This document shows, piece by piece, positions 50,648 to 64,000 of a DNA stretch of 64,000 bases. Origin of the DNA: Micromonospora sp. WMMD812 (GTDB lineage Bacteria; Actinomycetota; Actinomycetes; Mycobacteriales; Micromonosporaceae); assembly GCF_027497215.1 (NCBI RefSeq), contig NZ_CP114904.1, positions 248,001-312,000 on the forward strand, given 5' to 3'. A model generated the notes under the pieces. That model did no database searches and had not been told where the DNA came from. It worked only from the letters and a program-made list of their open reading frames with translations. The first letter of the stretch is position 1. Each line of letters opens with the position of its first letter. Both the position numbers and the translations under genes were made by a program.

Positions 50648-51871
50648 TCAGGGGCCGCTCCGGGCCAGCTCGGCGGCGCGGGCGGTGAGCGCCCGGCGTT
50701 CGGCCGGCGCGTCGGTCATCGCGGCGGCCTCCCGGAACAGCGCCGCGGCGCGGGCCCGGTCGCCCTGGTGGACGGTCAGCTCCGCCTCGACCGCGAGCGC
50801 CGACGGGTAGCCGTCGAGCGCGCCGCCGGCGCGGGCCTCGGCGAGCAGCGCCAGACCGCGCGCCGGCCCGTACGCGAAGCCGTGCGCCACGGCCCGGTTC
50901 AGCCGCACCACCGGTGACGGATGCCGCTCGGCCAGCTGGTCGTACCAGCCGGCGATGGCCGGCCAGTCGGTCTCCGCGCTGCTGGGTGCCATGGCGTGGC
51001 ACGCGGCGATGCGGGCCTGAAGGGCGTACGGGCCGTCCGCGCCGGCGCGGTCCAGCACGTCGAGCCCCTCGGCGACGGCGGCCCGGTCCCAGCGCGACCG
51101 GTCCTGCCGGTCTAGGGTGACCAGGTCGCCGGCGGCGTCCCGCCGGGCGGCGTGCCGGGAGTGCTGGAACAGGAAGAGCGCGAGCAGCCCGGCGACCTCC
51201 GGCTGGCCGGGCATCAGCCGCTCGACCAGCCGGGCCAGCCGGATCGCCTCGTCCGCGAACGCCGGCTCGCCGTCCGCGTCGTACCCCCGGGTGAAGAGCA
51301 GGTAGAGCACGGCCAGCACGCCGGGCAACCGCTCCACCAGCGCCGACCCGCTCGGCACCCGGTACGGGATGCGGGCCTGGGCGATCTTCGTCTTCGCCCG
51401 GGTCAGCCGCCGGGTCATCGTCGACTCGCTGACCAGGAACGCGTGCGCGATGTCGGCGGTGCTCACCCCGCAGACGGTGCGCAGGGTGAGCGCGACCCGC
51501 GCCTCCATCGCCAGCGCCGGGTGGCAACAGGTGAAGATGAGCCGCAGCCGGTCGTCCACCACGTCCTCCTCCCCGGCCACGGGCGGTCCCGCCGCCCGCT
51601 CGGTGAGCAGCGCCAACTCGCGCAGCTTGCGGCGCTCGGTGTCGGCCCGGCGCAGCACGTCGACGGCCCGGTTCCGGGCGACCGTCATCAGCCAGCCGCC
51701 CGGATTCGCGGGCACCCCGTCCCGGGGCCAGCGCTCCATGGCGAGCGCCAGCGCTTCCTGGGCGCAGTCCTCGGCGAGCGTCCAGTCGCCGGTGACACGG
51801 ATCAGCGTGGCCACGATCCGCGCGAACGACTCCTGGCCCGCGCTGGCCACAGCCCGGGACGGGTCCGTCAC
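50648..51871 (-). CDS. ECF sigma factor, ECF42 type (DUF6596-containing)
   Basis: A 407-aa extracytoplasmic-function sigma factor from the GTG at 51871. Sigma region 2 covers about residues 12-75 (RIVATLIRVTGDWTLAEDCAQEALALAMERWP...ARNRAVDVLRRA). Region 4 is TLRTVCGVSTADIAHAFLVSESTMTRRLTRAKTKI, near 130-165. The long C-terminal half (DUF6596 plus TPR-like helices, e.g. LYLLFTRGYDADGEPAFADEAIRLARLVERLMP) is diagnostic of ECF42. ECF42 factors lack a classical anti-sigma factor and are encoded next to DGPF proteins, as here (4 bp away). Confidence 0.93.
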   Translation of the reverse strand: MTDPSRAVASAGQESFARIVATLIRVTGDWTLAEDCAQEALALAMERWPRDGVPANPGGWLMTVARNRAVDVLRRADTERRKLRELALLTERAAGPPVAGEEDVVDDRLRLIFTCCHPALAMEARVALTLRTVCGVSTADIAHAFLVSESTMTRRLTRAKTKIAQARIPYRVPSGSALVERLPGVLAVLYLLFTRGYDADGEPAFADEAIRLARLVERLMPGQPEVAGLLALFLFQHSRHAARRDAAGDLVTLDRQDRSRWDRAAVAEGLDVLDRAGADGPYALQARIAACHAMAPSSAETDWPAIAGWYDQLAERHPSPVVRLNRAVAHGFAYGPARGLALLAEARAGGALDGYPSALAVEAELTVHQGDRARAAALFREAAAMTDAPAERRALTARAAELARSGP

Positions 51872-51875
51872 CGGA

Positions 51876-52214
51876 TCAGGCGTCCGGGTCCGTGTAGAAG
51901 GGGCGCAGCTCGATGCGGCCGGCGTACGCCATCGGGTGGTTGCGGGCCACCTCGATCGCCGCGTCCAGGTCGGCGCACTCCAGCAGGTCGAAGCCCACGA
52001 TCACCTCCTTGGTCTCGGCGAACGGCCCGTCGCTGACGAGCAGCTCGCCGCTGCGGACGCGGACCGTGGTCGCCGCGTCCGGCGCGGCCAGCCGGTCGCC
52101 GGCGAGGCGCTGGCCGCGGGCGTCCCGCTCGGCGACCCACCGCTCGATGTCGAGCGCCGCGGTCGGGTCGGTGTCCGGCTCGGTGTCCGTGCAGACGAAC
52201 ATCATGTACTTCAT
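51876..52214 (-). CDS. DGPF/YCII-related protein, ECF42 partner
   Basis: A 112-aa protein with the YCII-like fold. It carries the eponymous motif in LLVSDGPFAETKEVIVGFDLLECADLDAAIEVARNHP, and a conserved MKYMMFVC start. It is in one operon with the ECF42 sigma factor (4 bp gap). In Streptomyces, DGPF genes are targets of ECF42, so this gene is probably both partner and target; its chemistry is unknown. Confidence 0.92.
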   Translation of the reverse strand: MKYMMFVCTDTEPDTDPTAALDIERWVAERDARGQRLAGDRLAAPDAATTVRVRSGELLVSDGPFAETKEVIVGFDLLECADLDAAIEVARNHPMAYAGRIELRPFYTDPDA

Positions 52215-52293
52215 GTCGCACTCCTCAGTGTGGTGACTCCACCAGGGTGACGATCGGGCTGGCCGGTTCCGGACGGCCCTGCGCGGAATTTTT

Positions 52294-52861
52294 TCAGACC
52301 CGGGTCCGGGCCAGCACGTCGATGATCTCCGCCGGTGCCGCCGGTCTCGCCGAGCCGGGGGAAGATCCGCTCGACGCTGTTGCGGTGCGCCTCCGCGTCG
52401 AGGTCGGCCATCGCGTCGACCGCCAGGGTGACGTGGTAGCCGTGCTCGTACGCGGCCTGGGCGGTGGACTCCACGCCGATGCCACCGAGCACGATCTGGT
52501 TGACGCCCGGTGGCGCAGCTGGAGGTCGAGGTCGGTGCCGTGGAAGGCGCCCCAGTTGCTCTTGGTCACCACGAGTCGTCCGGATTCCCGCCGACCTCGT
52601 CGACGAGCACGTCCCAGCCGGCCGGCGGGCGCCGGCCGGGCGCTTCTGCTCGGCGCGGGCGGGTACGGCGTCCGACCCGTCGGGGCGGCGGTGATCCGGA
52701 CCAGCACCACCGGACGCCGTGCGCACGGAAGGAGTCGGCGAGCCGGGTGGCGCGGGCCACCACGTCGGCAGCGGGGTACGGGACGGCCGGGCGGCCACGA
52801 TGCCACGCTGGAGGTCGATGAGGACGAGGGCGGTGCGAGGGTCGAGCGTGCTGAGCGCCAT
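52294..52861 (-). pseudogene. Isochorismatase-family hydrolase broken by multiple frameshifts
   Basis: Read on the minus strand, the pieces of an isochorismatase-family (cysteine hydrolase) protein follow each other but in changing frames. They are MALSTLDPRTALVLIDLQRGIVA, RPAVPYPAADVVARATRLADSFRAHGV, VVLVRITAAPTG, SDAVPARAEQKRPAG, GWDVLVDEVGGNPDD, LVVTKSNWGAFHGTDLDLQLRH, GVNQIVLGGIGVESTAQAAYEHGYHVTLAVDAMADLDAEAHRNSVERIFPRLGETG and AEIIDVLARTRV. Six successive changes are each equivalent to loss of one base; the last is in the opposite sense. The family's usual GVxTxxCV cysteine site reads GIGVESTAQAAYEHG, lacking Cys. Decay or sequence error are both possible. Confidence 0.8.
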
Positions 52862-52911
52862 CTCCTTCGTGGTGGTACGTCGTGACAACCCCAGGGAAAC
52901 GCTGACTAGGG

Positions 52912-52960: not shown

Positions 52961-53596
52961 TCATGACGCCAGCGCAGGCGTCGCGGTCACCGATCTGATG
53001 ACCTCGACGTAGTCGTAGAAGCGCTGCGTTCGTTGCCCCGAGTCTCGCATCTTTCGGGACAAGTCCCCGTGGGGGAAGAACGACTTGCGGAGGGCGTGAG
53101 AGAGCTCTAGCTGCACACCCGCTCCTCGCTGGTTCTTGTTGCAAATGTTGCCGCGGTAGGTGCCCGCTACCTCGCTCGAGGCCGATGTGACACTGAACCC
53201 CCTGTCGGCCAGCCCGGCCGCGATACTTCCTCCGAGGTCCGTGTCCAGTCCACCGACGGCGGTTTCGGCCTGGTCGCCCGTGCCGGCGTAGCCGTGAAAG
53301 GAGATGGTCCGGTCTACCGCTCCCAGTAGGGCCAGACACTGTGGCTCGTCGAAGTGCGTGGCGGTGATGTGCAGGTCGGAGTTGTGGCTGGCTTTGATGC
53401 CAGCGAACACGTAGGTTTTCATGAGGCCGTCGCCTACGGTCAGCGCCAACTCTCCGCTACCAGCTTCTATGCCCCCGCCGTGAATTGCGATGGATGCCCA
53501 CGACGTCGTGGGCAGGTCAAGCGCGGTACGGGTGTAGGCAACGCCCTCCTCCTCGGCGGCAGCCAATTGGGCGTAGTTGTCATACAGGTTGCCCAC
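52961..53596 (-). CDS. Poly-gamma-glutamate hydrolase family protein (phage-type PGA depolymerase)
   Basis: A 211-aa metal-dependent peptidase-like protein of the PghP family. It carries the pattern VGNLYDNYAQLAAAEEEGVAYTR, ASIAIHGGGIEAGSGELA (His39 and Glu44), SDLHITATHFDEPQCLALL, TISFHGYAG (His101) and VQLELSHALRKSFF. I chose the GTG at 53596 because GGGAGG lies 6 bases upstream; the longer frame to 53770 runs across the neighbouring gene and has no homology. There is no signal peptide, as in phage homologues. It cleaves gamma-glutamyl bonds of poly-gamma-glutamate. It is the promoter-distal gene of the minus-strand run that holds pgsB and pgsC. Confidence 0.9.
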   Translation of the reverse strand: MGNLYDNYAQLAAAEEEGVAYTRTALDLPTTSWASIAIHGGGIEAGSGELALTVGDGLMKTYVFAGIKASHNSDLHITATHFDEPQCLALLGAVDRTISFHGYAGTGDQAETAVGGLDTDLGGSIAAGLADRGFSVTSASSEVAGTYRGNICNKNQRGAGVQLELSHALRKSFFPHGDLSRKMRDSGQRTQRFYDYVEVIRSVTATPALAS

Positions 53597-53624
53597 CAAC
53601 GACCTCCCGCTCAGGACGCCCGCC

Positions 53625-54152
53625 TCAGCGGCGAGCAGCGACGCTGCCCCGGCTCGGCGAACCAGGAGTCGCGAAAAGCTGGGCCGCCTGGCCGGCGAAC
53701 CCCGCGTCGACAAGGACGTCGTAGCTGTCAGCTCGCATGCCGGCGACCGAGCTGAAATCGCGACGCCCACCGGTCAGCACGTGCGCGAGAAGACCGAGCA
53801 GCCCACCGACGATCGCGCCGAAGATCGCGCCGTAGAGGGCGAGCAAGACGCTGGAGATCAGCGGGTCGATCCAGTCGAACAGCCCGAACAGCCAACCGAA
53901 CAACGCACCCAACACGAACCCGGCGGCCGCAGCCTGGGCGGCCGCGCTGCCCATGCCCAAACGGCCAGTGACCTGCTCGTAGCTGCTGAGGCCACGACCG
54001 ACGATTGCCACATGCTCTACTGGGAACCGCTGGTCGGCCAGGTAGTCCACCGCCTGTTCGGCGTCCGGGTGTGTCGCGTACGAGGCAATCACGACCTGAC
54101 CTTCGGACGAGGACGGCGCGGCCCCCGAGCGGTCAAACGATGACTGGGCCAC
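53625..54152 (-). CDS. General stress protein 17M-like membrane protein
   Basis: About 175 aa. The GSP17M-type start is VVIASYATHPDAEQAVDYLADQRFPVEHVAIVGRGLSSYEQVTGRL (residues about 20-65). A glycine-rich hydrophobic hairpin follows (AAAAGFVLGALFGWLFGLFDWIDPLISSVLLALYGAIFGAIVGGLLGLLAHVL). The GTG at 54152 has GAGGAAGGG about 10 bases upstream; a TTG at 54161 would overlap the upstream small frame. It probably resides in the membrane and its function is unknown. It lies 28 bp before the PGA hydrolase. Confidence 0.82.
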   Translation of the reverse strand: MAQSSFDRSGAAPSSSEGQVVIASYATHPDAEQAVDYLADQRFPVEHVAIVGRGLSSYEQVTGRLGMGSAAAQAAAAGFVLGALFGWLFGLFDWIDPLISSVLLALYGAIFGAIVGGLLGLLAHVLTGGRRDFSSVAGMRADSYDVLVDAGFAGQAAQLFATPGSPSRGSVAARR

Positions 54153-54157
54153 AGCGA

Positions 54158-54370
54158 TCAATCCCTTCCTCTGCCGATCGTCGTGCCGTGTTCTTCCCGC
54201 TCCAAGGCGATGTACTCATGCAGCGACCTCGGATCGGCCGGGCGGGCGACGAAGGCGGGATCCTTCCCGGCCAGGAGGGCGACCTGCGGCGGGTCGCCGC
54301 TACCCGGTGAGTGACGGCGCTGAGACCGAGCCGCGGACACCGACTGTCGGGCCGGTACTGGTGACCTCAA
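54158..54370 (-). CDS. Possible small hypothetical protein
   Basis: A 70-codon TTG-initiated frame between the two flanking genes. The last 40 residues (PPQVALLAGKDPAFVARPADPRSLHEYIALEREEHG) look protein-like. Its stop overlaps the TTG of the downstream gene (TTGA), which hints at coupling. The true start may be the GTG at 54340. I recognise no family; it may be chance. Confidence 0.35.
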   Translation of the reverse strand: MRSPVPARQSVSAARSQRRHSPGSGDPPQVALLAGKDPAFVARPADPRSLHEYIALEREEHGTTIGRGRD

Positions 54371-54386
54371 CGGCCGTTACTGCCGG

Positions 54387-55169
54387 TCAACGGCGAGCTT
54401 TGAGCCGCTGCCGGGCGGTCAGCATGTTGCCGGTGACGAAGGCCAGATCGATGGCAGGTTCGGTGACGGTTATCGGGTTCGGCACCTTGGTAGAGATGCC
54501 GTCGGGTAGCGGCTGGTGCGGCGTCAGCTCGATCTCGATGCCGAGCAGCTGGCCGACAATGCGGGTGGCATACAAGGCGACGTCCCCCTGGATGGTCAAT
54601 CGGTCGGTCGTGAGCGGCATGGTCCGGTCCGTCGGCATGGATGAGCGTAGAAGGACGTCGTCGGTGACGACGCGGTCCATGGTCAGCTTCAACGCCGTCA
54701 CGGTGCCACCGTTGGTGGGCAGGTCGACGACGCCGTCGAAACGCAGCCCGGTCATGGTGATGGTGGCGGCGGTCAGCGTCGACGGGGTCGCCGCCACGAC
54801 TGGCTGTCCCGGATCGGCGGAGATCCGTGCCAAGGGCTTCCGCGCTCCGCGGCCGCCGCCGGCGCGCGGTGTCTGCTGTCCGGCGTCGCATTCAGCAGCG
54901 GGACCCGTTGACTGGTCGGTGGCTGCACCGGCCGACACCGGAGCGGGCGACACCGGTGCGCAGGCCCGTGCCGCGCTGGGCGCGTTTATGGCTACGGCCG
55001 CTGAGAGTCCGAACATGCCGAGCAGCGCCACGTAGAGGCGCGGGTGTCGGCCCGCGGACAGCGTCCGTCGGTCATCCGGCCGTCCGGCTCGCCCCGTCAT
55101 GATGGGCGTGGCTCCTCGGACGCGACAGACACCGGCTACCGGCCGGCGGGTATCGTCTCCGTCCGACAT
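54387..55169 (-). CDS. Exported hypothetical protein of the DUF6114/DUF6230 locus
   Basis: A 260-aa protein starting at an ATG that overlaps the DUF6114 stop (TGATG). After about 35 residues there is a membrane/signal segment (LYVALLGMFGLSAAVAINAPSAARA). The mature region has two cysteines (ACAPVSP, ECDAGQQ) and a beta-rich part (LTAATITMTGLRFDGVVDLPTNGGTVTALKLTMDRVVTDDV, then LTIQGDVALYATRIVGQLLGI). The latter resembles the beta-sheet repeats of DUF6230 proteins. It ends MLTARQRLKARR. It is co-transcribed with DUF6230 and DUF6114, and its role at the cell envelope is unknown. Confidence 0.75.
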   Translation of the reverse strand: MSDGDDTRRPVAGVCRVRGATPIMTGRAGRPDDRRTLSAGRHPRLYVALLGMFGLSAAVAINAPSAARACAPVSPAPVSAGAATDQSTGPAAECDAGQQTPRAGGGRGARKPLARISADPGQPVVAATPSTLTAATITMTGLRFDGVVDLPTNGGTVTALKLTMDRVVTDDVLLRSSMPTDRTMPLTTDRLTIQGDVALYATRIVGQLLGIEIELTPHQPLPDGISTKVPNPITVTEPAIDLAFVTGNMLTARQRLKARR

Positions 55170-55846
55170 CAGCTCGTTGATGAGGGCCGCGTGCTCGTGA
55201 TCGGCGCCTCGTCGTTGACCGATAGCTTGCGGACCCCATCATGTGATGGCTCGCCAGGTATCGCGCGTTCGTCGGCGGGCTCGTTCTTCGCCGTTGGCGC
55301 CTCGACCGACTCGCTCCCCAGTGTGTGGACCTGACCCGGCTCGTTCCCGGCCGTTCGGTCCTCGGCCGGCTCGTCCTCGGCGGTGGGATCGTTGGCCGGC
55401 TCGTTCGGTAGCTTCCCGCTTGCGCTCGACGCCTCCTCGCGTGAGGCCGCCGGTCGATCGCCTGGTACCCAGGCGAAGCCGAGGGCGCTACCTACAATGC
55501 CGAGCAGCAGGCCGAGGAAGAAGCCGCCGAGATTCACTCCAATCAGGGAGAAGAGCGCGGTCACCGCAGCGACTACAGCGTAGAACGTCCGCTCCCGCGG
55601 CCTGAACCACATCAGCAACCCGCAGGTTAGGAGAATGGTGGGGACCAGCCAGGAGAGGAAACCGGTCGGGCCCATCTGAAACGTAAGACCAGCGAGCGAC
55701 ATCTGGGTGGTGCCGAATATCTCCAGACCGGCCAGTGCGGTGACCGTGCCTCCCCAGAACGGTCGCGTCCGCCGCCACCGGCGGGCGCCGCCCCATGCAT
55801 AGCGGAACCTTTTCGGCTGCTCGTGTCGCGGTTTGACGGTTGACAC
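55169..55846 (-). CDS. DUF6114 membrane protein
   Basis: A 225-aa membrane protein. A basic N-terminus (RFRYAWGGARRWRRTRPFWGG) precedes four hydrophobic segments in residues 30-130 (TVTALAGLEIFG, TGFLSWLVPTILLTCGLLMWF, TFYAVVAAVTALFSLIGVNLGG, FFLGLLLGIVGSALGFAWVPG). This is the DUF6114 pattern. A long acidic tail follows with repeats of the form (N/D)EPA(N/E)D and NEPG/NEPA, probably disordered. In actinobacteria DUF6114 genes sit next to DUF6230, as here. Function unknown. Confidence 0.87.
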   Translation of the reverse strand: MSTVKPRHEQPKRFRYAWGGARRWRRTRPFWGGTVTALAGLEIFGTTQMSLAGLTFQMGPTGFLSWLVPTILLTCGLLMWFRPRERTFYAVVAAVTALFSLIGVNLGGFFLGLLLGIVGSALGFAWVPGDRPAASREEASSASGKLPNEPANDPTAEDEPAEDRTAGNEPGQVHTLGSESVEAPTAKNEPADERAIPGEPSHDGVRKLSVNDEAPITSTRPSSTS

Positions 55847-55923
55847 ATATGCCTCCTGCCAGGTAGGAGTCGCGGGCAGGGACGTGGCCGGGGAAGACGC
55901 CGTTCCGGCGGCCGGCGATCAGC

Positions 55924-56535
55924 TCAGAAACATTCCTTGGCGGCGGCACCGACATTGACCTTCAGCTTGAGTCCCGTCAGGTTGAACCTCCCCGCGTGAG
56001 TTGCGCGAGCTACTTGGCGGAGGTTCTTGATGTTCACCCTCTCGGCCTGCTGACCGAAGGACTTCGGCTCGCCCCGGGCTCCGGCTGGACCCCCCTCAAG
56101 CGTCGACGCGTCCTGTCCGATGTTGATGCCGTCGAAGACGACATCACCTTCAAGCGATTCCGTATCGATCAGCAGGTCGTCCGCTGTTGCGGGCTTGCCG
56201 CCACCGCCAGCGGTGATGGTGAGCACCACGGGGGCCCCTGGCGCCTTCACTGACTGGCAGAGATCGAAGAGCTGTGCGTTTCGGATGCCCGTCACCGCTA
56301 CGGGTTGGCTTGTGCCGTCAATCTGCCTTGTGACGCCGCCGAATTGGACGAAGCCCTCCCCGCGCAGCTCGGAGGCGGAAACCTTGAAAGTCTGGCCGGA
56401 GACCGCGAACGAAGCTGCCAGCGCACCATTGCTGATGCTGAGCACGATCGCGCCGGCGGCCACGGTGGCTGGCACGATAAGGGCGGCGAAGCGGCCCCAG
56501 CGTGTATGGCCTGGAGAGTCGGACCGTTCCGGCAC
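55924..56535 (-). CDS. DUF6230 family exported protein
   Basis: A 203-aa protein from a GTG with GAAGGAGG upstream. The family start TRWGRFAALIVPATVAAGAIVLSISNGALAASFAVSGQTFKVSASELRGEGFVQFGG is present (residues about 11-67), with an uncleaved-looking signal anchor. The rest is beta-rich (VLTITAGGGG, DLLIDTESLEGDVVFDGINIG) and ends AAAKECF. DUF6230 proteins are envelope proteins of unknown role and co-occur with DUF6114. It stands between a C39 peptidase and DUF6114. Confidence 0.87.
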   Translation of the reverse strand: MPERSDSPGHTRWGRFAALIVPATVAAGAIVLSISNGALAASFAVSGQTFKVSASELRGEGFVQFGGVTRQIDGTSQPVAVTGIRNAQLFDLCQSVKAPGAPVVLTITAGGGGKPATADDLLIDTESLEGDVVFDGINIGQDASTLEGGPAGARGEPKSFGQQAERVNIKNLRQVARATHAGRFNLTGLKLKVNVGAAAKECF

Positions 56536-56765
56536 GATTCCTCCTTCAGGTGGATGTCGCGCAGGTTAGCCGGATGAACGTGGCGGCTCGCTTGGCTCAT
56601 ATGTGTTGTCTGTTGCTAGCGAGCTCGGTGAAGGTGGCGCGTTGGTGTCGCACCGCTGCACCCCGCCGAACTGACGATAACACGAGCCTTACTCAACGTG
56701 GTGCCGCAACTGCAGACCGTCCGCAAGCTATCAGCGTCCACCCTCAGCACCGGGAGTCGAATGGG

Positions 56766-56799
56766 CGCTGGCCGGGCCCCGTAGGAAACCCGGCCAGCG
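56766..56799 (-). terminator. Terminator hairpin after the C39 peptidase gene
   Basis: A perfect 11-bp inverted repeat, CGCTGGCCGGG and CCCGGCCAGCG, has a 12-base loop. It lies 17 bp past the C39 peptidase stop in the direction of transcription, so DUF6230 probably has its own promoter within 56536-56765. Confidence 0.72.
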
Positions 56800-56815
56800 G
56801 CAGCGTTCAGGTTCA

Positions 56816-57523
56816 TCAGCTGGAGTAGCCGCGCTCGGCGATCCAACTCGCGACCTTCTTGCCGCGCATCCAGTAGTGCTCGTCAGGCGAGTACGGGTCC
56901 GCGATCTTGACGCTCTTGCCGCCATTGCGGTAGCCAATGATGGTCAGGTAGTGCCCGCCCTCGTATGAACGCCAGTTGCCACGTGTGTCAGCTGCGGTGC
57001 CCGTGATGTTCGCAACGACGCCCCGCTCGGCATCGACCGCCTCGACGACGTCTTCGCGCAGCTCCTCAACCTGTTCTCGCCTCGCCGTCGAGCCGTCAAT
57101 CTCGGTCGTCTCGTATCCGCCGCCGGTCATCTCGTTGAGCACCCTTGTCGTGTCGTCGGCCGATTTGGTGCCGGCCTTGGTGGTGCCCAACTTGTCGGCA
57201 ATCTCGTTCTGGCTCGCGGTCTTGCCCTGAGTCGATAGGGCGATCCGGGTGGCGGCCGGAGCACAGTAGTAGGAGTTCCGCTGCCGCTGGTAGTCGTGGT
57301 CGAGCACTCGCTTGCCCCCACCTCGAGGCTCGGTCGGCGGGGGATGGGCGGGCGCGGGCGAGGCCGGCGCCGGTTCGGGCGGCGCGGTTTGGGGCGGCTT
57401 CGGGTCGACGGGCTTCGGATCAGCCGCGGGTACCTCGGCGGCCATGGCCGGGCCGGCCACAGTGCCTCCGGTGATCAGGAGACCGGCTGCGGACAGCAGG
57501 CCCACACGGGAAATCGAGTTCAT
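56816..57523 (-). CDS. Secreted C39-family (papain-like) peptidase
   Basis: A 235-aa exported protein from the ATG at 57523 (GGGAGC upstream), with a signal peptide to about residue 29 (GPAMAAE). A Pro-rich linker (about 35-68) precedes a C39-like domain. Cys87 is in RNSYYCAPAATRIAL, His191 in YEGGHYLTIIGY and Asp209 in KIADPYS, forming a complete triad. C39-type domains cleave Gly-Gly leaders when fused to transporters; free secreted ones have unclear substrates. Its place in the PGA locus suggests cell wall or capsule processing. Confidence 0.85.
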   Translation of the reverse strand: MNSISRVGLLSAAGLLITGGTVAGPAMAAEVPAADPKPVDPKPPQTAPPEPAPASPAPAHPPPTEPRGGGKRVLDHDYQRQRNSYYCAPAATRIALSTQGKTASQNEIADKLGTTKAGTKSADDTTRVLNEMTGGGYETTEIDGSTARREQVEELREDVVEAVDAERGVVANITGTAADTRGNWRSYEGGHYLTIIGYRNGGKSVKIADPYSPDEHYWMRGKKVASWIAERGYSS

Positions 57524-57920
57524 CGTGAAGCTCCCATCGGGTTTGACACCGTTAGGACTCGGAAGCGCAAGCACTAGGGGCGGGACCATCGCGCTACCCA
57601 GCAGGTCGCCCCGGACGCTCCCGGGTTCCCGGGCTTTCGATCGGCTTCCCGGGCTCTCGGCTGTCGAATACCCGGCTGGAGTGCATAAAAACGCGGGAGC
57701 CTACCGCACTGATCGCGGAACCGGCGCCAGATCGGCCAGAAGGCCTGCACGTCTGGCATCGGCGCCGGCTGACTGGGAACGTGGCGCACCGTTGGCCCGC
57801 CGGCGTGCTCGCTGACCGTCCGACCTCCTCGAGGCGCCGACCGCAGGTTTGGTCGCGCGCCAGCTCGGCGCGCAACCACGGCGGCAGCCTCCTTCCGCAG
57901 GCTCTTTTACCAGGGCCGAG
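57524..57920. other. Intergenic region between the NlpC/P60 and C39 peptidase genes
   Basis: About 400 bp. No convincing gene is visible on either strand. Three CCCGGG hexamers between about 57619 and 57655 could form hairpins that end the upstream transcript. A TTTTTATGCA stretch near 57680-57690 (minus strand) and TTGCGC near 57570 are possible promoter parts for the C39 gene. Confidence 0.4.
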
Positions 57921-58973
57921 TCAGACTCGGCGAGCTGTGCGCCACCGGTCCGGCCAGTAGCCGGCACCGTCCAGGATTGATTCACCCGCCAGATCGCCCA
58001 TCGTCGGCCCGTCTGCCTGTGAGCGACTGGAGATGAAGCGGTGATGGCCGCTGTCGTCGATGCCCAGGTAGATGCCCGAGTGCTCAATGTTGGCGCCCAC
58101 CACCGGCCCGGCATTGAAGAACAAGAGGTCGCCCGGGAGCAGACGATCCAAGCCGCGTGCTCGCTGCCCAGAATTCGGCATCAACTGAACACCCGGACCC
58201 ACTTCGGCCATCGCGTAGGCCCGGCGTGGAAGCCCCTCTCCCGGGTTGTTCGTGCCGAGCAGCGGATACCCGAGTCGATGTCCGTACACCATCCGCAGGA
58301 AGCCAGAGCAGTCCAGAGCCAGAACACGCTCCGGCTCGGGCACCACGTTCTTGCCGTCAAGAAACGACCATGGCACGCCGAGGTAGTCGTAGAAGTCAGA
58401 TTTCTCCGCACGGCCATCGGGATCCAGGGGGTCCAACGGCCCGAACGATGCGTCACCCGAATACTGCTGTCCCTGGTTGTCCTTCTTCACCGGAGACTCG
58501 TCGGTGTACTCCATCGCGATCGCCAGCGCGTCGGGCGAGCGGTCGTTGCGGGCGGCGGCGAGCCAGTCGGTGAACCACTTCTCGTGCTCCGCGCCCGCGC
58601 GCCACTCCTGTGGTGCGAGCCGGGCCCAGACATTCGTCTCCACCTTTGCCGCCGTGTACCGTGGCTCCTCGAATGTGCGGAGTGGACCGTAGAGCTGCAC
58701 CGTTCGCGCGCCGTCGGTCATGGTCGCGACCGGGTGACCGGACGAGTCGGTGATCTGTGTGCGATCTGGCGCGGTCAATCGATGGTAGCTGAAGCCGGAC
58801 GACCCGCGCGCCTGACTCTGGGCCGACTTCCCCGAGCCCAACGTCAGCACCGGTTGGTCCCCTGGCGAGGGGCGCACGACGACATAGGTGATCGCGCTCG
58901 CGACGACTAGCAGCGCGACCCCGGCAATGGTCAGCAGGACGCTGGGCCTGCGGAAGTACGTCCGGTAGTTCAT
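57921..58973 (-). CDS. Membrane-anchored NlpC/P60 (C40) peptidase
   Basis: A 350-aa protein from the ATG at 58973 with AAAGGAGAAG upstream. An N-terminal anchor helix (VLLTIAGVALLVVASAITYVVV, residues 12-33) puts the rest outside. The C-terminal C40 domain has Cys222 in LALDCSGFLRMVYG, His298 in NIEHSGIYLG and a third polar residue near His310/311. The middle (about 60-180) is unique. C40 enzymes cut gamma-D-glutamyl bonds in peptidoglycan, and PgdS of Bacillus uses the same fold to cut poly-gamma-glutamate. Located 36 bp after pgsC, it is the likely PGA-trimming or -releasing enzyme. Confidence 0.87.
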   Translation of the reverse strand: MNYRTYFRRPSVLLTIAGVALLVVASAITYVVVRPSPGDQPVLTLGSGKSAQSQARGSSGFSYHRLTAPDRTQITDSSGHPVATMTDGARTVQLYGPLRTFEEPRYTAAKVETNVWARLAPQEWRAGAEHEKWFTDWLAAARNDRSPDALAIAMEYTDESPVKKDNQGQQYSGDASFGPLDPLDPDGRAEKSDFYDYLGVPWSFLDGKNVVPEPERVLALDCSGFLRMVYGHRLGYPLLGTNNPGEGLPRRAYAMAEVGPGVQLMPNSGQRARGLDRLLPGDLLFFNAGPVVGANIEHSGIYLGIDDSGHHRFISSRSQADGPTMGDLAGESILDGAGYWPDRWRTARRV

Positions 58974-59009
58974 GCCGCTTCTCCTTTCGCGACTTGTCCA
59001 AGACAACGG

Positions 59010-59495
59010 TCAGGTCACCGGCACGAAGCCGGCGACGACCCCGCTGTACGCCACGCCGAACGTGATCCCGGTGACGATGAGGGTCGCGAGGATGGTGGCC
59101 TTGGCCGGCTGACGTACGAGCTGGTACGCGATTAGCCCAGGGATGACGAAGCCCAGCGTCTGGTGGGCAAACAGCAGCGGAAGGTCCCGCTGGACGATGA
59201 CGAACAGTGTCAGCTGCAGCAGGACGCTGAGCAATACGATCGCCGCGAACAACCGCTTTCCGTAGAGGATGACCACCCGCTGCATCAACTTGGTGAGCAG
59301 ATAGGTCAGGACTGTCATCCCCAGGATGATTCCTGCCTGCAGCTGGTCCTCGATCAGTGTCAGCGCGATCCAGCCGGGTGTGATCATGCCGCCGGGCGAG
59401 AGATTGGTGGTCAGGTAGCACAGCAGCGCGAACACCAGCCCGATGCCGAGGCTCGCGGTGGCCAACTGGGCACTGAGTTCTCCGCCGAAGGTCAT
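59010..59495 (-). CDS. pgsC: Poly-gamma-glutamate biosynthesis protein PgsC/CapC
   Basis: A 161-aa integral membrane protein with four to five helices covering nearly its whole length. PgsC-like features are LGIGLVFALLCYLTTNLSPGGMITPGWIAL at the start and LTLFVIVQRDLPLLFAHQTLGFVIPGLIAYQLVRQ in the second half. Its length matches the family (about 150 aa). The ATG overlaps the pgsB stop (ATGA). In Bacillus PgsB and PgsC form the core of the PGA synthase/export complex. Confidence 0.92.
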   Translation of the reverse strand: MTFGGELSAQLATASLGIGLVFALLCYLTTNLSPGGMITPGWIALTLIEDQLQAGIILGMTVLTYLLTKLMQRVVILYGKRLFAAIVLLSVLLQLTLFVIVQRDLPLLFAHQTLGFVIPGLIAYQLVRQPAKATILATLIVTGITFGVAYSGVVAGFVPVT

Positions 59496-60733
59496 CGTTC
59501 GATCCCTTCTCCCGTCTGCGTACGGATCATGGACGCTCCCTGCGAGCCGTCCTCACAGGACCAGCTCGGCAGCTGGGCCAGGGCCTGGATCAACACCTCA
59601 CCCTGTCCATGGATGTTTCCGACGGCGACGATGGAGGAACCGTCCGGTACCTCTGCCGCCACGTCGTCCAGGAGCCGCTCGGAGTCGAGCTTGCCGCCGA
59701 GATCGACAACCCGGTCCTGAAGCTCCGTCGGCACGTTCGTACGCGCGCTCTTGGTGACCTCGCCGATCAACACGATCTTCTCCGGCTGTACCTGGCCGCT
59801 GAGTTCGCCCATCTGTCCGTTGCGTTCGATCCGGTCCGGCCGGCAGTTGATCACCATTGTCAGCGGGCGAGTGACGAGCTGTTGACGCTCCAACTGTTGA
59901 ATGTTCATGAGGGTGGACTCGGGATCGTTTGCCGCGAAGATGTTCGCAAACCGCATCCGCTTGGTGCCGTGCATGACCCGTTCCACGGAGAGCACACCCG
60001 GGTCGGGGGGTGACTCCCACATGCCCTTGAGGGCGCTCTGCCGGTCCACGCCGAGTTGTTCGGCAACAGCTAGGGCGATGGCCACATTCTCCTTGAAGGT
60101 GATCCAGCCAAAGCCGTTCATCTCGCTGTCGGTCACCGACTCCGGGTCCACCGAGATGAGGTGGCAGTCGCGCTTGTCGGCCTCCTCCTGCAGGATCGCC
60201 AGCCGCTCTCGTTCCGCGGTGATGCAGACTCCTCCCACCGGCATGGATAGGCTCAGGGACCGGGCGACGTCATCAAGCGTCGGTCCCATCTCGGCGAGGT
60301 GGTCCTCGCGCACGTTGCAGAGCACTCCGATGTTGGATTGAATCAGCTTGCTCTGATTGTGGTCCTGCAGCGCCGGCATCACCGCCATGCACTCGATGAC
60401 CAGAGCGTCCGGGTGGTAGACGGCGGCTCGTCTTACGATTCCGATCTGCTCGACCACGTTGGCAATGCCAAACTTGCGGTGCACCGGTTCTTCGCTCGCG
60501 TCCGGAAAGATGAACCGGGCGGCGGTGCCGGTGGTCTTCGCCACCACCACCCGACCGCCCCCGCGCAAGGCGCCGGCCGCGAGCCGGGTGATCGAGCTCT
60601 TGCCCCGGATGCCGTTCACAAGCACCCGGTCCGGAATCATCTTCAGGTTGCCGTAGTGGTTGCGCTGTTCGACGATCCCGGCGACGAGCAGAGCCAGGCA
60701 GCAAAGGACAAACACCATGTAGAGGTACGCCAC
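59492..60733 (-). CDS. pgsB: Poly-gamma-glutamate synthase PgsB/CapB
   Basis: A 413-aa membrane-bound amide ligase from the GTG at 60733 (AAAGGGG upstream). An N-terminal helix (YLYMVFVLCCLALLVAGIV) is followed by the Mur-ligase-like ATP loop GIRGKSSITR (41-50). PgsB segments follow: VVVAKTTGTAARFIFPDGS-type (here FIFPDASEEP), CMAVMPALQDHNQSKLIQSNIGVLCNVREDHLAEMG and INCRPDRIERNGQM. Its length fits the family (about 390-460). It polymerises glutamate through gamma-carboxyl amide bonds with ATP. It is preceded by the sensor gene and coupled to pgsC. Confidence 0.95.
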   Translation of the reverse strand: MAYLYMVFVLCCLALLVAGIVEQRNHYGNLKMIPDRVLVNGIRGKSSITRLAAGALRGGGRVVVAKTTGTAARFIFPDASEEPVHRKFGIANVVEQIGIVRRAAVYHPDALVIECMAVMPALQDHNQSKLIQSNIGVLCNVREDHLAEMGPTLDDVARSLSLSMPVGGVCITAERERLAILQEEADKRDCHLISVDPESVTDSEMNGFGWITFKENVAIALAVAEQLGVDRQSALKGMWESPPDPGVLSVERVMHGTKRMRFANIFAANDPESTLMNIQQLERQQLVTRPLTMVINCRPDRIERNGQMGELSGQVQPEKIVLIGEVTKSARTNVPTELQDRVVDLGGKLDSERLLDDVAAEVPDGSSIVAVGNIHGQGEVLIQALAQLPSWSCEDGSQGASMIRTQTGEGIER

Positions 60734-60734
60734 G

Positions 60735-63062
60735 TCAGCCCCTTTCGTTTCGGCCGGCAGGGGGAGGATCGGGGTCATCGCCACCTGACGGCGTACCTCG
60801 ATCAGTATTGGCCTGCGGCGGGATCTCGGGGAGCACCGCCGTGGCGTCGTCCTCCGCACCGCGTGACTGTGTTGCACCGCGAAGTCGTGGCGCGCCGCCC
60901 AACCGGGCCGAGCCGGTGTTGCGCGCCTGGCGGCAGACTTCCAGACAGACGGCCAGAGCGCCGATGTCATCGTGTCGTTGCGGCGGGATCGGTACGTCCG
61001 TCTCACCACGGCTGATCCGGTCGGCCTCGCCGGCCAACCGCCGCAGCGGCCGAGCGAAGACGTAGTACTGCCAAACCTGGGTGAGCACCACGACGCCCGC
61101 TGCAGCGGCGGCGACCAGCAGAGTCCACCGTCGGCCGTCGCTCTCGGGCAATCGCAGCCCGTTGAGGTCCTGCTCCACCACAAGCGACCACTTCAAGGGA
61201 GTAACGGTGTTGGGCTTGTTCAGGCCAGTCGCGGCGATGAGGGCCGGTCTGCCGTCGGGTGTCCTTGCCTGCCCGACCGTGCCGCCCTTCAGCGCCTCGG
61301 CTGCGGCGCTACGTGCGCTACCTTCCAACTGCTCGAAAGCGCGGAAACCCTCTGAGTCGAAGACGGTGCGCAGGTCTTCGTCCACGACCCGCACCTGGCC
61401 GTCCACCTCGCGCAGCATTCCCAGTAGGTAGTCGATGCTGTACTCGCCGACGACGCCGACGCCGTTGGCAGCGACCCGGTAGGCGTAGACCACTGGGAGG
61501 CGCGCCGTGTTGTTGTCCAGGTCGATGCCAGCCTCACCCCGGAGCGGTTCCTTTCGGAGCGGCTCACGCCCGGCGGAACTGATCACCGACCCTTGCGGGT
61601 CGACGACGTAGAGACTGCGGAAGCGCTGTTTGTCCGCCAACTCATGCTCCAGGAGTGGCTTCGTCGTCTGGGCAGGATCGCCGGCCTCGGTCGCCTGCGA
61701 GATGCGGATAATGGTCTGCAGGCCGTTGTTCAGCGCCTTGCCCATCAGAGTGCCCGCCGCCGCTGCCCGACTCTCCTCGTCCCGCACGAGCTGGTCGGGA
61801 ATGGCCGGCTCAGGCGCACGCAGAGTAATGGCAGCAGCCGCCGCCGGCCAGATCAGAGCCACCAATGTCGCCAGGGCGAGACCTTGCATCACGGTTGGTC
61901 GTCGCCATCGCCACCAACGGCGCGGGGCGGTAGACGACGACGGGTTGCCGGACGTGAGAGCCAGAGCGTGCGCAATGCGGTGCGCCTCCGCGATGCGCAG
62001 AGGTTGCCGCCTGGTGGCGGCGCCGCTGGCGTTTGCCCTGGCCTGCGTCAACAGCGACCGAACCGGGCTCGCCAACGCCAGCCGCATCAGCAGAAAACTC
62101 GGAATCGCCATCGCCAGCAAGGTCAGGCCGAGCACGGCACCCTGCGTGGTGGAGGTGCCGCCGGTCTCGTCTGCGACGATCAAGGTAGCGAGCGTCACTC
62201 CGGTGTTGCCCAGGGGTGCGGAGGACACGACGAGTTGCTTGTCCGGCCATTCGGTGACCCGGATCGGTTGGCCCGCACTGGACTGGGACTGCGCCAAGCC
62301 GTGGAAGACGGTCGGCAAATGAATCTGGTCGACCGCGCTGATCCCCTGCAGGAGGGTGCTCTTGCCGTCCGGAGTGATCGCGAAAACGCCCTGTCGGGCG
62401 TCGGGGCTGAGGCGCAACTCGTCAATGCTCAGCGGTTGAGTCGCCAACAGGGTCCGCGAGTTGTCCAGCGGGATGCTCCGGACCAGGGTCGGGCCGTCGT
62501 GGGTGCTGATCGGGAACACGTTCGCCGGAAACGCCGGCGGCAGCAGCTCAATGGGCAGCGCGGGGCCGAGCGTCGCGGCCGGACGGCGGGTGGCCGTCTC
62601 GATGATCGTGGCTCCGTTCCAGATCGACGCGTCACCCAGCACCTGCTTGAGAAGCTCTGGATCCGGGGTCCCCGGGGCTCGAGTCGCGACCCGCTGGTCG
62701 AGTTCCTCCACAGAGTGCTGAACACTCAGTCGCGTGCTGGATGCCACCTTCGTCAGGTTGTCCCGCTGCGATTCGACCACCGCCGGGGGTACGCCCCGCT
62801 GACTGTGAATGGCAAAGCCCAGCACAATTGCGGCCGCGAGGACCATCGTCGCCCAGAGGTACACCAGGGACGGCTTACCCGATCCTGCCGGGAACCCGGC
62901 GGCCGGTAGTTGCTGATCAAGCGCCCGTTGGCGCCAGGTAACCATTTGCTCTTGCGACAGCTTGTCCGTCGGCGATGCTGCTACCGAAGCGCGTCCGCGA
63001 AACCCATTGCGATCGGTCCGCCCGTTGGCCGCAGGGTCTTCCCCTCTGCCTCTCATCCTCAT
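60735..63062 (-). CDS. Tandem extracellular sensor protein with HAMP domain, no output domain
   Basis: A 775-aa membrane protein from the ATG at 63062 (AAGGAAAGGGG upstream). A polar N-terminus of about 65 residues precedes the first helix (LVYLWATMVLAAAIVLGFAI). An extracellular module follows (about 88-305), then a second helix (GAVLGLTLLAMAIPSFLLM), a loop, and a third helix (GLALATLVALIWPAAAAAI). A second PDC/Cache-like module (about 410-670) and a fourth helix (LLVAAAAAGVVVLTQVW) complete the array. It closes with a HAMP region (PLRRLAGEADRISRGETDVPIPPQRHDDIGALA). It lacks kinase, cyclase and MCP domains and ends in an acidic Pro-rich tail. It ends one base before pgsB, so it probably belongs to the PGA complex. 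Confidence 0.82.
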   Translation of the reverse strand: MRMRGRGEDPAANGRTDRNGFRGRASVAASPTDKLSQEQMVTWRQRALDQQLPAAGFPAGSGKPSLVYLWATMVLAAAIVLGFAIHSQRGVPPAVVESQRDNLTKVASSTRLSVQHSVEELDQRVATRAPGTPDPELLKQVLGDASIWNGATIIETATRRPAATLGPALPIELLPPAFPANVFPISTHDGPTLVRSIPLDNSRTLLATQPLSIDELRLSPDARQGVFAITPDGKSTLLQGISAVDQIHLPTVFHGLAQSQSSAGQPIRVTEWPDKQLVVSSAPLGNTGVTLATLIVADETGGTSTTQGAVLGLTLLAMAIPSFLLMRLALASPVRSLLTQARANASGAATRRQPLRIAEAHRIAHALALTSGNPSSSTAPRRWWRWRRPTVMQGLALATLVALIWPAAAAAITLRAPEPAIPDQLVRDEESRAAAAGTLMGKALNNGLQTIIRISQATEAGDPAQTTKPLLEHELADKQRFRSLYVVDPQGSVISSAGREPLRKEPLRGEAGIDLDNNTARLPVVYAYRVAANGVGVVGEYSIDYLLGMLREVDGQVRVVDEDLRTVFDSEGFRAFEQLEGSARSAAAEALKGGTVGQARTPDGRPALIAATGLNKPNTVTPLKWSLVVEQDLNGLRLPESDGRRWTLLVAAAAAGVVVLTQVWQYYVFARPLRRLAGEADRISRGETDVPIPPQRHDDIGALAVCLEVCRQARNTGSARLGGAPRLRGATQSRGAEDDATAVLPEIPPQANTDRGTPSGGDDPDPPPAGRNERG

Positions 63063-63361
63063 GGCGACCCCTTTCCTTCCGCGAACATCGGAAGCTGTAC
63101 GGTCAGTCTCGATCATGGAACTCGGGGGGGTGAGCGAACATCACCCGGCCGAGATGAACCAGAGGCGCGGTGACCTTCGTCGGTCTCGCTTCGCCTGGGC
63201 ATGGGGTCATGACTTCCACCGTCGACCCCCCGTGGGTGAGGACGCCTCACCCGGTGAAGATGAAGGGACATGCAGGGCCACCGATTACGCATATGTCCAC
63301 GTGGCCGCGTTGCGGCGGATGGGCATCGTGACGGCCGCGGCCGCGGATGATCAGGCAGACG
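63063..63361. other. Intergenic region between the gamma-glutamyltransferase and sensor genes
   Basis: About 300 bp. It holds the terminator hairpin at 63234-63252 and presumably the promoter of the sensor-pgsB-pgsC operon. I see no gene in it. Confidence 0.5.
63234..63252 (-). terminator. Terminator hairpin after the gamma-glutamyltransferase gene
   Basis: A perfect 8-bp inverted repeat, GGGTGAGG and CCTCACCC, has a 3-base loop, about 110 bp past the gene's stop. It separates it from the sensor-pgsBC operon. Confidence 0.5.
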
Positions 63362-64000
63362 TCACTCGCCGATCGCCACACCGTCCCGACGTCGGTCGGC
63401 CGCCCCGAGAAGCTGGTCTCCGCGAATCTGGATTGCGGTGGACCCGGAATCCAGTGCGATGACTCGTGGGCAAGGGTGGTCGAGTTGTACGAGGCTCGGC
63501 AGACGCGTCGCGACCCGCCTACCTGCTTCAATCTCTGAGGGGGCGTCCCGTTTCCCAGCGCAATCCCGTGTGATGTCCTGCCCGCTGAAGTGCCCCTGGT
63601 CGAGAGCCTGCGCCGGCGTCTGGCCGTCGACGAGGAGGCCCACCAGTGCTTGGGCCACGTAGTCAGGGATGTGTGAGCCTCCCGCTGCGCCCACGACAAG
63701 TTGTAGATTCTTCCCCTCGCCATCAAGGACCAAGGTCGGCGCCATGGAGGCGGTGGGTCGTTTCTTTGGCTTCATGACGTTCACCGGCTTGCCCGGTGAC
63801 ACCGATGACGTGTCGGTGAAGTTGTTCATCGAGTTGTTGAGAATTATCCCTCGTGCCTCGAGGTGCGAGCCGAAGTGGCTGTTGTTGGTGGTGGTCATGG
63901 AGGCGGCATTGCCGTCGGCGTCGACGATGCTGACGTTGCTCGTCGGATCGCCGACGTCCACCGTGGCGGGCTCGTCACTGATGGAGGGCGCGGGCGGGGG
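63362..64000 (-). CDS. ggt: Gamma-glutamyltransferase (GGT/CapD type), C-terminal part
   Basis: The 3' 212 codons of a gene whose start lies right of the window. The sequence is the small-subunit part of GGT. The nucleophile region DPTSNVSIVDADGNAASMTTTNNSHFGSHLEARGIILNNSMNNF (about the first 60 visible residues) would be exposed by self-cleavage at the Thr of PTSNVS. The PTASMAPTLVLDG and VGAAGGSHIPDYVAQALVGLLVDG segments follow, and it ends GAADRRRDGVAIGE. Where standard GGTs have TTH, this has TSN. In Bacillus anthracis the GGT-fold enzyme CapD cuts PGA and links it to peptidoglycan; adjacency to pgsBC suggests the same here. Confidence 0.9.
   Translation of the reverse strand, partial: PPPAPSISDEPATVDVGDPTSNVSIVDADGNAASMTTTNNSHFGSHLEARGIILNNSMNNFTDTSSVSPGKPVNVMKPKKRPTASMAPTLVLDGEGKNLQLVVGAAGGSHIPDYVAQALVGLLVDGQTPAQALDQGHFSGQDITRDCAGKRDAPSEIEAGRRVATRLPSLVQLDHPCPRVIALDSGSTAIQIRGDQLLGAADRRRDGVAIGE

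Follow-up and report, generated by a model that had tools for sequence, protein, structure and literature searches.

A soil bacterium of the genus Micromonospora probably carries genes which make and trim a glutamate polymer, with a putative membrane receptor directly in front of the synthase genes. That this is a locus of the poly-gamma-glutamate (PGA) synthase type is very likely, while we give somewhat better than even weight to the fuller reading, a PGA locus of an actinobacterial type that pairs the synthase genes with a dedicated receptor, through whose HAMP domain and tail a ligand most likely switches synthesis. PGA is a commercial polymer, and its synthesis is known mainly from Bacilli. 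The sequence analysed (the window, 64,000 nucleotides) covers 248-312 kb (bases 248001-312000) of a complete, single-contig genome of 7.13 Mb, and all the PGA-locus genes named in an earlier note on this DNA were recovered within positions 52961-64000, on the minus strand, where the GC content is 0.64-0.69 (2-kb bins, 52-64 kb) versus 0.70-0.79 up to 52 kb. The genes are, in their 5' to 3' order:

63362..64000, minus strand: C-terminal 212 residues of a GGT; the whole gene (627 aa) ends outside the window, at window coordinate 65245 (L005:3362-5245)
60735..63116, minus strand: tandem dCache-HAMP membrane receptor without output domain (the tandem sensor), predicted, 793 aa; an alternative start 18 codons further in is possible
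59492..60733, minus strand: pgsB, encoding a Mur-ligase-like subunit of the PGA synthase; 413 aa when started at GTG 60733, upstream of which the frame stays open
59010..59495, minus strand: pgsC, membrane subunit, PF14102 at 117.8 bits versus a cut-off of 27
57921..59006, minus strand: NlpC/P60 (C40) peptidase, PF00877 at 31.5 bits versus a cut-off of 23; a start at 58973 fits the relatives
56816..57589, minus strand: C39-like peptidase, PF13529 at 75.7 bits, with an endolysin PHROG match
55924..56535, minus strand: DUF6230 protein, PF19741 at 168.9 bits, a neighbour in the window's clade
55169..55846, minus strand: DUF6114 protein, PF19609 at 115.7 bits, likewise a neighbour in that clade
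54387..55169, minus strand: 260-aa protein, no Pfam family above cut-off, found near this clade's loci with DUF6230/DUF6114
53625-54161, minus strand: YflT-like gene
52961..53770, minus strand: PghP-type PGA hydrolase, PF05908 at 182.9 bits

Upstream of the GGT gene the gene kinds are different ones, with a weak sulfatase match and a CDP-alcohol phosphotransferase.

The assignment of the synthase genes rests mainly on PgsB, which scores 384.6 bits versus an equivalog cut-off of 222.7 (TIGR04012, on the longer frame to 60778), and in which the P-loop NGIRGKSS and the motifs NCRPDR and GNIHG are conserved across 16 aligned sequences; the Pfam Mur_ligase_M model gives 21.2 bits versus a cut-off of 24. 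PgsC stays under its own equivalog cut-off (TIGR04011, 76.8 vs 96.45 bits), and neither protein matched the PDB by sequence. The overlap of pgsB and pgsC by ATGA described before is as stated, with the pgsB stop ending at 59492 and the pgsC ATG at 59495. A pgsB start further upstream, overlapping the sensor gene, had also been considered, but alignment places the start of the relatives at GTG 60733, one base past the sensor stop codon (60737-60735). Five loci of the genus (L070, L073, L075, L076 and L077) have PgsB calls of 597-702 aa; in the L075 copy, the one aligned, the C-terminal tail is long and proline-rich.

The protein encoded directly before pgsB models as a dCache-type receptor with HAMP, two extracellular sensor domains and a short conserved tail. 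The model contains two ectodomains and long helices, four of which can be read as putative membrane helices, and dCache matches mostly align with the second ectodomain, some ranges spanning both, with the whole model used for the comparison. HAMP was recognised by Pfam in the window sensor and in 20/21 members, whereas nothing was found in Pfam after HAMP at E 0.01 in the 21 members, nor a kinase, cyclase or chemotaxis domain in the sensor; residues 738-793 have a pLDDT under 50. The R-x-W-Y motif, which we take to be the ligand motif of amino-acid-binding dCache domains (dCache_1AA), is absent from all 21 sensor sequences, leaving an amino-acid ligand unsupported. Compared with the dCache-HAMP chemoreceptors PctA, PctC and CtaA, the window sensor thus differs in its two tandem sensor units, in having no methyl-accepting or other output domain, and in the missing R-x-W-Y (checked in the 21 sequences).

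We searched 300 genomes of the window's family, in which PgsB is found above cut-off in 39, at 43 loci; genes at the window and the 42 other loci were called with our own script, which gives rough starts. A sensor precedes PgsB in 34 of these loci, with 1-5 bases between the two genes in 25 according to these calls, and a 35th (L074, with a broken frame) was detected by tblastn and counted as lacking. Eight of the 43 loci are without a sensor, and therefore PgsB does not need it everywhere. Scanning the contigs of 84,980 species for a single peptide pattern returned 41 stretches, of which 21 are sensor relatives (11 from Micromonospora, three each from Phytohabitans and Virgisporangium, two from one Micromonosporaceae MAG, and one each from Pilimelia and Haloechinothrix, the latter a member of the Pseudonocardiaceae with 25% identity), and in 21/21 the sensor is adjoined by PgsB and PgsC, followed by C40. 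As 16 of these loci were already in the family set, five are independent (L084, L086, L088, L090 and L103). A comparison of PgsB neighbourhoods across the Micromonosporaceae, proposed in the earlier note, gives sensor-PgsB-PgsC, mostly with C40, as the conserved core in family and named-species loci alike. When 270 genomes were searched with the first ectodomain, which does not depend on PgsB, 26 of them gave hits, at 27 places, all at PgsB loci and within about 3 kb; this query misses distant sensors (of the two sensor loci in G062 it found one), so that the result holds only for sensors within its reach. Two PgsB loci each are present in 4/39 genomes (G229, G062, G027 and G091), G229 and G091 having one sensor-type and one sensor-less locus.

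By this distribution the sensor is a putative dedicated partner of PgsB. As the sensor was found only beside PgsB, its acting on PgsB and PgsC is the most likely reading: PgsB, as an ATP-dependent ligase, and PgsC, as its membrane partner, would polymerise glutamate and pass the polymer out, as their families suggest, and binding of a ligand outside the cell would shift HAMP and tail, which would act on the two synthase subunits and so switch polymer synthesis. A more specific version, in which the output-less receptor would be a fixed polymerase subunit whose HAMP and tail pass an outside signal directly to PgsB/PgsC and would thereby determine when PGA is made, and perhaps how long, is offered tentatively. 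A role of the sensor as scaffold or anchor would fit the linkage equally well. We are doubtful of the alternative that it serves an unlinked partner, such as a kinase or regulator encoded elsewhere, or only anchors the complex, HAMP not gating PgsB/PgsC: the conserved tail after HAMP could bind anything, but the sensor adjoins PgsB at every place where it was found, and does so with 1-5 bases between them in 25/34 loci.

With regard to the wider phylum, 21 of 396 genomes contain PgsB, at 22 loci, of which 20 were read (G356 was left out and the window's own locus not repeated). A sensor is present in six of these. Of the others, twelve show the order pgsB-pgsC-capA-GGT and gave no sensor match, and two lack GGT and match CapA weakly. 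The PgsB tree (63 rows, all of them PgsB, and built without L138, where frame extension gave 10 residues; L101, which has a broken frame, was left out of alignment A3) places the 12 classic operons in a single group with a support of 100/100; L143 and L144 have long branches and fall elsewhere. Support is weak (88/90) for the branch shared by the sensor-type PgsBs, which includes one sensor-less locus, L072, while seven sensor-less loci form a neighbouring group (100/96), and the window PgsB groups with those of the four other GGT-bearing loci (100/99). Judged by gene order and this tree, the receptor-linked locus is a predicted second actinobacterial PGA operon type beside the classic one (L126-L133, L135, L140-L142). 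The classic operon shares PgsB, PgsC and a GGT with the window, but its PgsB is only 33-38% identical, it contains CapA, it has no sensor match at E 0.01, and it forms a separate group in the tree.

The absence of CapA/PgsA from the window, as remarked in the earlier note, agrees with a profile search of the whole genome, which found no CapA (PF09587) in the window or within 20 kb. The suggestion that the gene may lie just past 64000 did not hold, as the flanking sequence and the genome-wide search rule it out: the four PF09587 genes of the 7.13 Mb genome are at 182.9, 998.9, 1522 and 4975 kb, the nearest of them about 124-125 kb from pgsB. In the family, CapA (PF09587 in the two members tested) is positioned before the sensor in 21/34 sensor loci, missing from the stretch examined in 13/34, and present in 6/8 sensor-less loci, there after C40. 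Within the window's clade, the window, L043 and L046 are without CapA, and L057 and L064 have it between GGT and sensor; the CapA of these two is 70-85% identical to that of five sensor-less operons versus about 51% to the best of the other sensor operons, and so seems to have been exchanged. In M. phytophila (L086) a CapA relative, at about position 1.4 kb of that stretch, is encoded on the strand opposite to the sensor, roughly 10 kb upstream of it.

The earlier suggestion that the tandem sensor takes the place of CapA is weakened by the 21/34 sensor loci which carry both genes, and is therefore not kept as our main reading. In its full form, with the sensor-like protein as a structural CapA/PgsA replacement (a scaffold, exporter or stereochemistry factor) and not a signalling receptor, we regard it as improbable: the 13/34 loci without CapA and the missing output domain are in line with it, but the co-occurrence in 21/34, the dCache-type receptor with HAMP predicted from the model, and the presence of a CapA-like gene elsewhere in 10/15 genomes with a CapA-less PgsB locus, versus 64/261 without PgsB (Fisher p 0.001, kinship ignored), argue against it. 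Without the three genomes in which a second PgsB locus carries CapA, the comparison becomes 7/12 versus 64/261 (Fisher p 0.016, kinship again ignored). The 182.9 kb paralogue of the window's genome is 51-53% identical to the nearest operonic CapAs and 46-47% to those of L064 and L057, and has relatives in 98/300 genomes at E 1e-40, 64 of these without PgsB. With the receptor as a switch of synthesis, the missing CapA would mean either that help comes in trans from a CapA-like paralogue at a distance of 125 kb, or that synthesis is CapA-free; in the latter case the polymer would be L-rich, as it is in B. subtilis when pgsA is absent. According to PMC6029982, B. subtilis PgsBC without PgsA makes L-rich PGA with a D/L ratio of 5/95, compared with 75/25, and in the CapsuleFinder models (PMC5542703) CapA and CapE count as accessory components.

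The GGT and C39 genes are limited to the window's clade (five of the 43 family loci and four named loci), and relatives of the GGT with at least 70% identity occur in 5/300 genomes, in 5/5 cases at PgsB loci, so that the GGT is, as far as gene content indicates, tied to this clade. The whole gene scores 375 bits with PF01019 and encodes a probably secreted protein with a hydrophobic N-terminus, in which T435 aligns with residue 1 of several GGT small chains (e.g. 2dbu_B), as expected from a GGT fold with an autocatalytic threonine, the feature it has in common with CapD. The earlier description as a GGT/CapD-type enzyme is borne out as far as the GGT family is concerned, but its identity as a CapD orthologue is unsupported, as the sequence is nearer to Bacillus-type GGTs: large-chain scores are 155.1 bits for 4ott_A, 142.3 for 2v36_A, 115.2 for 2dbu_A and 112.1 for CapD (3g9k_L), and small-chain scores 55.0 for 2dbu_B, 34.9-36.9 for 2v36_B and 4ott_B, and 29.4 for CapD. 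The C40 enzyme has a PgdS-like NlpC/P60 catalytic domain (PF00877) preceded by a hydrophobic N-terminal stretch and a conserved N-terminal region, and its C222 and H298 (numbered from the 58973 start) are conserved in 95% or more of the 38 C40 proteins called at over 300 aa. The C39-like peptidase is probably secreted as well. Judged by their families, C40 and GGT would act outside the cell and trim, release or attach the chain.

The PghP-type enzyme gives 129 bits with the phage PM1 PGA hydrolase 21dc and 117 bits with 3a9l, with aligned HxxxxE and HG motifs, the residues of which we take to be metal-site motifs; its true start is uncertain because the longest frame overlaps the YflT-like gene. 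It shares PF05908 and these motifs with the phage PghP and YndL hydrolases but is chromosomal, and may degrade the polymer, as its family suggests, although its linkage is not conserved. A gene of this type is near PgsB in only 1/39 PgsB genomes and not in the other 38, and the family is not clearly enriched (11/39 PgsB genomes vs 44/261 others, Fisher p 0.12), and hence it was rejected as a conserved part of the locus. Instead, 23/34 sensor loci carry c5, a gene of roughly 290 aa positioned convergently downstream of C40 (represented by L066:6950-7825, with 22 relatives, and with no Pfam match in the two members tested). The c5 model best matches PGA hydrolases by VIA (Z 14.0 and 13.8, with tied rows down to 13.1), a PGA-hydrolase-like predicted fold, whereas in the Foldseek ranking aminopeptidase and metallopeptidase folds come ahead of PGA hydrolases; c5 has no match in the PDB by sequence, and was not found in the window's genome in a search without positive control. 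The DUF6230-DUF6114-260-aa set (54387-56535 in the window, minus strand) is near all five family GGT loci and four named GGT loci, with varying sides and strands. A PGA-specific role for DUF6230 was rejected, as the family is present in 88/121 genus genomes, and the window's genome has a second copy at 4.87 Mb.

That PgsB and PgsC make another gamma-linked product, either with a different amino acid or as short glutamyl tails attached to a lipid or to the cell wall instead of free PGA, has little probability in our view: PgsC is below its equivalog cut-off and the literature matches listed include no PGA producer of this family, but PgsB is far above its cut-off and the clade-specific GGT, PghP and c5 belong to or resemble gamma-glutamyl enzymes. 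The Bacillus operons pgsBCAE and capBCADE have PgsB, PgsC, a GGT-fold enzyme, a C40 enzyme and a PghP-type enzyme acting on PGA in common with the window (for Bacillus, see PMC5751247 and PMC4497714), whereas the window is without CapA in the locus and without a recognised PgsE, and has its GGT at the upstream end, a predicted dCache-HAMP receptor before PgsB and the C40 gene after PgsC. The view of a PGA system with a gene set unlike that of Bacillus therefore stands with regard to the different genes and the missing CapA, but that of one complete system comprising all listed genes does not, since the conserved core is sensor-PgsB-PgsC-C40, GGT and C39 are clade-limited, and PghP and DUF6230 are not PGA-specific.

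The presence of the sensor beside the synthase in Micromonosporaceae and some distant actinobacteria suggests that environmental signals may be sensed by the synthase itself; such a receptor would offer a protein handle for tuning PGA, and the natural CapA-free loci are a place to test what CapA does. In Bacilli, the pgs operon is under control of DegS-DegU and ComP-ComA according to PMC5751247. PMC4497714 refers to 250 species with PgsB/PgsC, named in its supplement, which may include actinobacteria, and there was no paper on a Micromonospora PGA operon or on a HAMP receptor with PgsB among the literature matches listed.

A decaying locus, with CapA lost, the hydrolase swapped and no polymer made, would fit the absence of CapA, the c5 gene not found in the genome (in the search without positive control) and a split isochorismatase gene at the border, but is very improbable, as GGT, sensor, PgsB, PgsC and C40 are open, full-length frames by alignment or family match and PgsBC without PgsA suffices in B. 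subtilis (PMC6029982). The isochorismatase-type gene (52211-52888, minus strand), which borders the low-GC island on its downstream side, is probably broken because its PF00857 domain is split across two frames: the pieces were matched in two ORFs that overlap, one match being below cut-off. Beyond it, at 50648-52214 on the minus strand, is an ECF-type sigma factor with DUF6596, adjoining a YCII-domain protein.
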